In this document: piece after piece, positions 35,390-42,183 of the stretch
Layout: each line of letters starts with the position of its first letter
How positions within the stretch are numbered: the stretch's first letter is position 1
From: an uncultured Opitutales bacterium
Lineage (GTDB): Bacteria > Verrucomicrobiota > Verrucomicrobiia > Opitutales > Intestinicryptomonadaceae
Assembly: GCA_944389315.1 (NCBI GenBank)
Contig: CALXLX010000012.1
Coordinates: forward strand, 1 to 64,000
Direction of reading: 5' to 3'
DNA length: 64,000 nucleotides
Notes under the pieces: generated by a model
Told to the model about the DNA's origin: nothing
Seen by the model: the letters and a program-made list of their open reading frames with translations, nothing else
Databases searched by the model: none
Program-made: the position numbers and the translations under genes

Positions 35390-36676
35390 ATGGTAAATCT
35401 GCAGAAGGTAATAAGCATTATCATGGGCGGCGGACGGGGTACGAGGTTGTATCCGCTGACCAAGAGCCGTTGCAAGCCCGCCGTGCCGCTTGCGGGCAAA
35501 TACAGGCTGGTGGACATACCCATTAGCAACTGTCTGAACTCCGGGCTGGACAGGATATATCTTTTAAGCCAGTTCAATACGGCGAGTTTGCACAAGCACA
35601 TACAGCAGACCTATAAGTTCGACGCTTTCGGCGGCGGCTTTGTTGACATCTTGGCCGCCGAGCAGACCGACAGCGGCGGTAATTGGTACCAGGGCACGGC
35701 CGATGCGGTCCGCAAGAACATGCACCACTTTGAGCGCCATGGGGACGATGCCCTCTTCCTCATACTTTCCGGGGACCAGCTCTACCAGATGGATTTCCGC
35801 AACCTGATAACCCGGCATATAGAGAGCGGGGCGGACGTCACTATAGCGGCAAAGCCCATGCCAAAATCTGTCGTGAGCGACTTGGGCGTAATGCAGGTCG
35901 ACGACAACTTGGACATTTTGCGCTTCGCTGAGAAGCCGAAGGATCCGGCGTTGATAGACTCCCTCGTTGTGGGCGATAAGATAAAGGAGACCTTGCCCGA
36001 CAAGAGCACGGACTATTGCCTTGCCTCCATGGGCATATATGTTTTCAGCGCCGCGGTTATGGAGGAGGCCATGTCGGGCTCAGAGATGGACTTCGGCAAG
36101 GAGATAATCCCCGGGCTGCTTGGCAAGCGCAAGTTGGGCGCGTACATATTCAACGGCTACTGGGAGGACATAGGCACCATAAGTTCGTTCTTCGAGGCTA
36201 ATCTCGCCCTGACGGACGATGTTCCACCCTTCAATTTCTACGATCAGAATAAAATAGTCTACACCCACTCGAGGTTTCTTCCCGGGGCGAAGATTCACAA
36301 CACGAAGATCAACCGCTGCAATATTTCGGACGGCTGCATAATACAGGATGCCGATTTGAACCGCAGCGTCATAGGAGTGCGTTCCATAATACGCAGCGGC
36401 ACGAGGTTCGACAACGTGATTATGATGGGCGCCGACTTCTTCGAGACAACCGAGGAAAAGGAGGATTGCCGAAAGGACGGAACCCCCAAGATAGGCATAG
36501 GCAAAAACTGCGACATACGGCGCGCCATAATAGACAAGAACGCTCGCATAGGCAACAATGTGCGCATCTCGCCAGACGGCAAGCCTGACGGTTGGGAGGG
36601 CAACAACATAAATCTCCGGGACGGCATAATAATAGTAAACAAGAATGCCGTGATACCCAACAACACCGTAATTTAG
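35390..36676 (+). CDS. glgC: glucose-1-phosphate adenylyltransferase
   Basis: 428 residues. It makes ADP-glucose for glycogen. The N-terminal nucleotidyl domain has GGGRGTRLYPLTKSRCKPAVPLAGKYRLVDIPISN (13-47), FLAEQTDSGG... region with WYQGTADAVRKN, and a left-handed beta-helix C-terminal domain rich in hexapeptides from about 290. The KPAVP and YRLVDIPISN blocks are the substrate- and allosteric-site regions of GlgC. It has its own promoter and terminator, so it is monocistronic. Storage of glucose fits an organism that depends on glycan breakdown. Confidence 0.94.
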   Translation: MVNLQKVISIIMGGGRGTRLYPLTKSRCKPAVPLAGKYRLVDIPISNCLNSGLDRIYLLSQFNTASLHKHIQQTYKFDAFGGGFVDILAAEQTDSGGNWYQGTADAVRKNMHHFERHGDDALFLILSGDQLYQMDFRNLITRHIESGADVTIAAKPMPKSVVSDLGVMQVDDNLDILRFAEKPKDPALIDSLVVGDKIKETLPDKSTDYCLASMGIYVFSAAVMEEAMSGSEMDFGKEIIPGLLGKRKLGAYIFNGYWEDIGTISSFFEANLALTDDVPPFNFYDQNKIVYTHSRFLPGAKIHNTKINRCNISDGCIIQDADLNRSVIGVRSIIRSGTRFDNVIMMGADFFETTEEKEDCRKDGTPKIGIGKNCDIRRAIIDKNARIGNNVRISPDGKPDGWEGNNINLRDGIIIVNKNAVIPNNTVI

Positions 36677-41469: not shown

Positions 41470-41508
41470 AAAAGGCGCGAACCCAATGTTCTATTGGGAT
41501 TCGCGCCT
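41470..41508 (-). terminator. terminator of the CBM-like protein gene
   Basis: AGGCGCGAA (41473-41481) with TTCGCGCCT (41500-41508), extended by CCCAAT/ATTGGG inside; on the minus strand TTTTG follows. About 40 bp after the stop of the gene at 41550. Confidence 0.85.
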
Positions 41509-41549: not shown

Positions 41550-41954
41550 TTAGAAGCTGGGCGTGAGCCATGCCGTCTCGCCTACCGGGACGACAAGATC
41601 CTCTCCGCATGCCCATACGGAGTCGTTCAGCAGAATCTTGAACGATACCTGGGGATCCGAAATTTTCTTCTCCCAGAGCCATTCGTCGTCGTTGACGCAC
41701 TGCATGAGCACGCCTTTGTCCCAGCTCAGACCGCCGCCGTTGCCGCGTATGTACAGCTGGTTGCCCCAGCCGGCGTCGAATTTCACGAAAACCCTTGTGA
41801 GGGTTCCCGCGGACGCGCATTTCTTCGTCGAGCAGGCAGCTTTCTTTGCGGGCTGCTTTGCCTCAGCCTTAACTGTGGCCTTCTTTGCGGCCGCCCTCTT
41901 CGGGGCTGCCGCAGGTTTTACAGCGGACGTTTTGTTTGTTTTCTTTTGAGCCAT
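41550..41954 (-). CDS. small protein: lysine/alanine-rich tail joined to a CBM20/starch-binding-like domain
   Basis: 134 residues, no signal peptide. Residues 1-50 are very rich in Lys and Ala with repeated K-A-A-A and A-K-K-A units, like histone H1 or Hc1 tails, and hold two Cys (CSTKKC, 41-46). Residues 53-134 look like a carbohydrate-binding beta-sandwich: VFVKFDAGWGNQLYIRGNG, LSWDKG, then EWLWEKK, FKILLND and VWACGEDLVV, the pattern of CBM20-type and related early-set domains. AAGGA lies 7 nt ahead of the ATG, and a strong terminator follows. A cytoplasmic protein that might bind both polyanions (nucleic acids or phosphorylated glycogen) and a polysaccharide is suggested; the function is unknown. 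Confidence 0.7.
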   Translation of the reverse strand: MAQKKTNKTSAVKPAAAPKRAAAKKATVKAEAKQPAKKAACSTKKCASAGTLTRVFVKFDAGWGNQLYIRGNGGGLSWDKGVLMQCVNDDEWLWEKKISDPQVSFKILLNDSVWACGEDLVVPVGETAWLTPSF

Positions 41955-42183
41955 TTTTTTCCTTTTTCAGTTGGAGAAATCACGCCTCAGAGCGTATGCT
42001 CCTTCGGTAAGCAATTCTCAATGAACGATATTTCTGAACTTTTAAACAAAATATTCAAGCTTTTTTCGGATAAAAAATCATCCGAAAGAAAACCGCTCCG
42101 TGTGTTTGCAATATCGGAAAAATACTCTTTCCCTTAAGCGGCCGTAAATTCCCAAGAAGCCGCTTTGCGCTTCCCTTGCGCGC

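Follow-up and report, generated by a model that had tools for sequence, protein, structure and literature searches.

A conserved Opitutales gene family combining a Lys/Ala-rich tail with a CBM20-like domain, a putative cytoplasmic glycogen binder

Analysis of the window (the whole 64,000-nucleotide stretch of DNA under study) revealed that the minus-strand ORF coding for a 134-aa protein is a real and conserved gene, the product of which consists of a basic Lys/Ala-rich tail and a CBM20-like domain (Table 1). Based on the conservation of the putative binding site, the domain of this protein and of its homologues with the same architecture (hereafter, the short forms) probably binds alpha-glucan. 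The family has no name in the profile libraries searched and is apparently undescribed in the open-access papers searched; a description of the pairing of such a tail with a CBM20-like domain was not found in the open-access literature searched, where most subscription journals are missing. The analysis adds an unnamed CBM20-like family, sequences of which are missed by the current profile libraries.

Table 1. Features of the gene, its predicted product and the neighboring glgC gene (positions are those of the window).
Feature	Position	Strand	Basis
Whole gene, short form, 134 aa: basic disordered tail and CBM20-like domain	41550..41954	-	ORF; homologues at genus, family and order level
Residues 1-50: Lys/Ala-rich tail, predicted disordered	41805..41954	-	Composition; pLDDT 42-53 per block
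Residues 51-134: CBM20-like beta-sandwich, predicted	41553..41804	-	AlphaFold2 pLDDT 92-95; match to STBD1 CBM20 (8x8k_C)
W63, putative counterpart of site-2 aromatic Tyr527 (A. niger glucoamylase)	41766..41768	-	Sequence motif, position not superposed
W78, putative counterpart of site-1 Trp543	41721..41723	-	HMMER alignment to W of amylase SBDs
K106, putative counterpart of site-1 Lys578	41637..41639	-	HMMER alignment
W114, putative counterpart of site-1 Trp590	41613..41615	-	HMMER alignment
D119, putative counterpart of site-1 Asn595, five residues past Trp	41598..41600	-	Every short form has D/N
Shine-Dalgarno-like AAAGGA, 5 nt ahead of ATG	41960..41965	-	Read from sequence
Strong hairpin 3' of stop, probable transcription end	41473..41508	-	-28 kcal/mol for 66-nt stretch, z -5.3
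glgC, ADP-glucose pyrophosphorylase, 5 kb from the gene	35408..36571	+	TIGR02091 over cut-off

The gene and its distribution

The window protein shares 84-88% identity with its homologue in the sister species of the genus. Within the family to which the organism belongs, the gene was found in 17 out of 19 genomes, its own genome counted, with identities mostly ranging from 50% to 60%, while in the order Opitutales the domain is present in 141 out of 177 genomes. In a 388-genome sample across the phylum, no matches to the domain were found outside the order; the domain profile matched only two genomes beyond the order, both from the same class: G264 (contig C265) and G268 (contig C47) (L073/L106, L107). 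The domain copies of these two genomes cluster together in the tree (98/91) and may be due to transfer or mis-binning. Genome G008, a nominal family member with a listed completeness of 95%, has no match for the domain, glgA, glgB or phosphorylase, and its sequence may be unusual.

An earlier, sequence-only reading of the window had described the product as lacking a signal peptide, and indeed no hydrophobic segment is found in the sequence of the window protein, either at the N-terminus or before the domain. The good Shine-Dalgarno sequence of that reading corresponds to the motif listed in Table 1. As for the strong terminator that it had also claimed, the strong hairpin downstream of the stop codon stands, but a consensus scan did not score it as a terminator because the T-run behind the hairpin is broken up. 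A sigma-70-like promoter was not found by consensus scan.

Domain fold and the putative glucan site

The AlphaFold2 model of the window protein, built with 28 homologues, contains seven predicted strands (residues 51-58, 67-73, 85-88, 91-98, 102-109, 120-123 and 127-130) in the C-terminal part, so that the CBM20-like beta-sandwich expected from the sequence-only reading was obtained with high pLDDT, and not a model devoid of a sandwich. Foldseek matched the domain with the SBD of Bacillus cereus beta-amylase (4.2e-05) and with the CBM20 domain of STBD1 in the presence of maltotetraose (5.0e-05). The best VIA-align hit was also STBD1 (8x8k_C; Z 11.6, 2.2 A, 87 residues), followed by the SBDs of CGTase and glucoamylase. 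CBM25 and AMPK glycogen-binding domains gave Z values of 8.8-9.6 against the domain model, and CBM41 is likewise among its structural matches; thus, the fold alone cannot separate these families.

Sequence profiles of CBM families, the comparison with which had been suggested in the earlier reading, gave weak CBM_20 and AMPK1_CBM matches in relatives of the window protein, but none over the threshold. When the whole protein was searched against Pfam and NCBIfam, only low-complexity noise was returned, with no model over the threshold and no phasin match in either library, and the PF00686 (CBM_20) profile did not detect the window protein in its genome. The Pfam matches of single members of the family are all weak: CBM_20 was matched most often, by 6 out of 38 members (best E-value, 0.0021), and the other matches are to AMPK1_CBM or X25 pullulanase domains. 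No matches were obtained in a search of PDB sequences with a single domain sequence, while the domain profile retrieved three only, all from starch enzymes, i.e., alpha-amylase, beta-amylase and AmyA (E-values, 0.14-0.35), the best HMMER alignment of which spans the W, K and W positions of the site. Profile-profile comparison with four glucoamylase CBM20s, for which the CBM20 profile is thin (4 sequences), was not significant. Since no Pfam family reached the threshold, the domain is CBM20-like and not a formal CBM20. With the CBM20 SBDs of glucoamylase, CGTase, STBD1 and laforin it has in common the predicted beta-sandwich, the site-1 Trp/Trp/Lys/Asn-Asp set and the site-2 aromatic residue, but the window protein is below the Pfam CBM_20 threshold, is not part of an enzyme, is restricted to the order and carries a K/A tail.

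The equivalence of site residues given in Table 1 is based on HMMER alignments to amylase SBDs and on motif spacing rather than on superposed coordinates, and Lys578 and Asn595 are further site-1 residues of A. niger glucoamylase. According to the literature, site 1 of this enzyme contains Trp543 and Trp590, site 2 contains Tyr527 and Tyr556 (PMC4965820), and the critical residues of the TgLaforin CBM20 are Trp, Lys and Trp (PMC9254107). The short forms (n = 74) were compared at the corresponding positions with 35 long forms, the membrane-anchored paralogues described below. Position 63 is aromatic in 73/74 short forms, whereas all 35 long forms have Ile here. W78, K106 and W114 are each found in 74/74 short forms, but only in 16/35, 11/35 and 4/35 long forms, respectively. 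Position 119 is occupied by D or N in the short forms (D35/N23 in 58 sequences plus N16 in 16) and by N in 5/35 long forms. R70, G71, G81 and D111, which belong to the scaffold, are invariant in both forms, with L76 and N110 being nearly invariant. The residues of the glucan site are therefore kept in the short forms for function and not just for the fold, as they are invariant there and mostly lost in the long forms. Alpha-glucan binding is the obvious candidate for this function, the contrast between the forms being strong, though indirect, evidence for it.

The Lys/Ala-rich tail and the membrane-anchored paralogue

Residues 1-51 of the window protein include 14 K/R and 16 A, and a single D/E. 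The histone-like Lys/Ala tail of the sequence-only reading is thus borne out by its composition, and the low pLDDT predicts it to be disordered. The domain is acidic (net -4), and the tails of the short forms have a median net charge of +14; among the short homologues, the tails are 33-139 residues long (median, 55), with about 32% of K/R and about 26% of A. The base rate of such tails was taken from 375 kb comprising the window and related loci, where a comparable K/A stretch is found in 18 out of 1284 ORFs, 17 of which are members of the family; in the window itself, the gene is the sole case. The K/A tail is not a chance lysine run, but is specific for this gene family. The only K/A-tailed ORF in the 375 kb that does not belong to the family (L090:15067-15426(+)) codes for 119 aa, and its short C-terminal part is unrelated to the domain. 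In Lys/Ala-rich composition, the tail resembles the bacterial H1-like proteins Hc1 and Hc2. The window protein differs from these in that there is no sequence family match, not all members of its family have such a tail, and two thirds of the protein are a folded, acidic domain of the glucan-binding type.

The pairing of tail and domain, which the sequence-only reading had proposed to look for elsewhere in Opitutales, occurs across the order, but the tail has been lost in one clade. The streamlined genomes of 0.7-1.1 Mb (families f7 and f25-f28) form a single clade within the short form (98/90), in which the domain is retained, but the tails have a net charge of 0 to +11 and are devoid of K/A repeats. 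In L148, a Ser/Gln/Cys-rich tail is found in place of the K/A tail. Since the streamlined clade has lost the K/A tail and kept the domain, the latter is the core of the protein, and the basic tail is accessory, being retained by most lineages. Several tails contain clustered cysteines (CxC, CC): those of family f1 (C41 and C46 in the window protein), L134, L135, L136, L140, L143, L144 and L148, i.e., mostly from f1 and the streamlined lineages. These clusters are possibly metal-binding or redox-related.

Among the homologues recovered, none has the tail as a linker of a larger secreted enzyme, the case that the earlier reading had named as contrary to its view; the only other architecture is the membrane-anchored paralogue. 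A second copy of the domain is located in the same genome as the window protein, but on another contig (C4, L002:202-1785), just upstream of hisF. In its product of 527 aa, two hydrophobic (TM) segments at the N-terminus are combined with long helices and a disordered acidic linker, and the domain, in which the glucan site is degenerate, forms the C-terminus; another long form, L126, has 462 aa. The AlphaFold2 model of the long form, of low overall quality (pTM 0.25), served solely to confirm the helices, the disordered linker and the C-terminal sandwich, all of which are visible in it. In the tree, the short and long forms are split cleanly (99/95; n = 35 in the long clade), and their profiles match each other with an E-value of 1e-39; thus, it is likely that both forms stem from one ancient duplication. 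The site-2 aromatic residue is found in 0/35 long forms, and the site-1 Trp and Lys are still present in those long forms that were sampled from f8 and f21. The result is a clean pair of paralogues, with the glucan site kept in one copy and lost in the other. Only the long form was seen in f2 genomes, and only the short form in the streamlined ones, which rules out the two as obligate partners and indicates that they can act independently. The top structural match of the window protein, STBD1 (genethonin-1), is a mammalian glycogen tether that likewise has a non-catalytic domain of the CBM20 type. The layout of STBD1, with a membrane anchor, a linker and a C-terminal domain, is that of the Opitutales long paralogue; in contrast, the window protein is not anchored in the membrane by any segment of its own, and the glucan site has largely disappeared from the anchored paralogue (W114 in 4/35).

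Possible role and glycogen context

PHA granules are attached to the nucleoid by the histone-like domains of PhaM and PhaF, and AlgP does likewise for polyphosphate, the removal of the AlgP tail resulting in fewer, larger granules; in each such tether, a single protein joins a part that binds the granule to one that binds DNA non-specifically (PMC13052382, PMC9239181, PMC3574117). Glycogen, or a protein that positions it, is never mentioned in the 2025 review among these papers (PMC13052382). The window protein resembles PhaF, PhaM and AlgP in combining a part predicted to bind a storage polymer with a disordered, Lys/Ala-rich tail of the histone-H1 type. It differs from them in the N-terminal position of the tail, in that the polymer would be glycogen, and in having a CBM20-like sandwich instead of a phasin helix as the putative polymer-binding part. 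The likeness is therefore meant in the sense of working alike only.

It is proposed that the protein may be a cytoplasmic, non-catalytic binder of alpha-glucan (glycogen). Its C-terminal CBM20-like domain would grip glycogen via the two-tryptophan/lysine site and the second aromatic site, and the flexible Lys/Ala tail would bind a polyanion, most likely nucleoid DNA. The protein would then coat or touch glycogen particles, hold them to the chromosome, and space or partition them. The binding of DNA or another polyanion by the tail and the positioning of granules are put forward as a hypothesis. That the protein as a whole is a glycogen binder with a DNA-binding tail, functioning like PhaF, PhaM and AlgP, is quite possible, although we stop short of calling it probable. 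Only tentatively do we extend this to an order-wide glycogen-to-nucleoid tether, in which a CBM20-like domain would be combined with a histone-H1-like tail and the glucan site would have been lost by the ancient membrane-anchored paralogue; if true, this would be an undescribed order-wide counterpart, for glycogen, of the PhaF/PhaM and AlgP tethers. Because the streamlined clade has no K/A tail and L148 has a different one in its place, tethering would not be the general function of the family. The sequence-only reading, in which a polyanion-glycogen bridge was suggested, is partly supported: the CBM20-like sandwich, the disordered K/A tail, the lack of a signal peptide, glgC in the window and the pairing across Opitutales have been upheld, but the tail is not common to the entire family.

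Other ligands of basic tails are RNA, polyphosphate, anionic membranes and acidic proteins. The window protein could instead be a glycogen-particle protein, the tail of which does not tether it to the nucleoid; it would recruit RNA or ribosomes, polyphosphate, acidic enzymes of glycogen metabolism or the anionic membrane, or just keep the particle surface charged and dispersed. We regard this as a real, if less than even, possibility: the K/A tail is a generic polycation of variable length (33 to 139 residues), and the streamlined genomes keep the domain and the site without it, which points to glucan binding as the core job. However, the tail is highly gene-specific, and this ancient gene has retained it in nearly all lineages that are not streamlined. 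The histone-H1-like composition of the tail and the invariant glucan site would also suit a nucleoid protein with a domain sensing glucan or maltodextrin, through which the alpha-glucan store tunes DNA compaction or expression. Such a role is very improbable, as the protein has a tail only and no DNA-binding fold, one clade does without the tail, and sensing of the AMPK type requires a coupled enzyme, whereas none is fused here.

Another explanation retains the CBM20 fold and replaces alpha-glucan with some other ligand, e.g., a protein or a different glycan. The paralogue, which keeps the scaffold (R70, G71, L76, G81, N110, D111) and has lost the glucan site, suggests that the fold is useful without glucan, and no sequence family was matched over the threshold. 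Nevertheless, the W/K/W/N set is invariant in the short forms and fits the site pattern of CBM20 (PMC4965820, PMC9254107), which makes another ligand unlikely. The family would render the question of glycogen positioning directly testable, in a lineage with almost universal glycogen genes even at a genome size of 0.7-1.1 Mb.

The glgC gene that the earlier reading had placed in the window was confirmed by its profile score (Table 1), and it lies 1.5-5 kb from the gene in only three genomes, all of the window's family, the window included. At 20 loci across the order, no conserved operon or neighbor was found. In total, 144 out of 177 genomes have glgA over the TIGR02095 cut-off. Of 25 genomes, the choice of which took in those without glgA, 24 have phosphorylase over the cut-off; branching enzyme was likewise found in 24, being over the cut-off in 21. 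Glycogen metabolism is thus a regular trait of Opitutales, in agreement with glucan binding but without discriminating between explanations; since the glycogen genes are near-ubiquitous, the co-occurrence of glgC says little. In the f21 genomes (G038, G056, G070, G084, G097, G107, G148, G155, G164, G173 and G180), glgA is below the cut-off (best E-value, ~1e-23), while the domain and glycogen phosphorylase are present, as is the branching enzyme in most of them. In this group, GlgA may have been replaced by another glycogen synthase.
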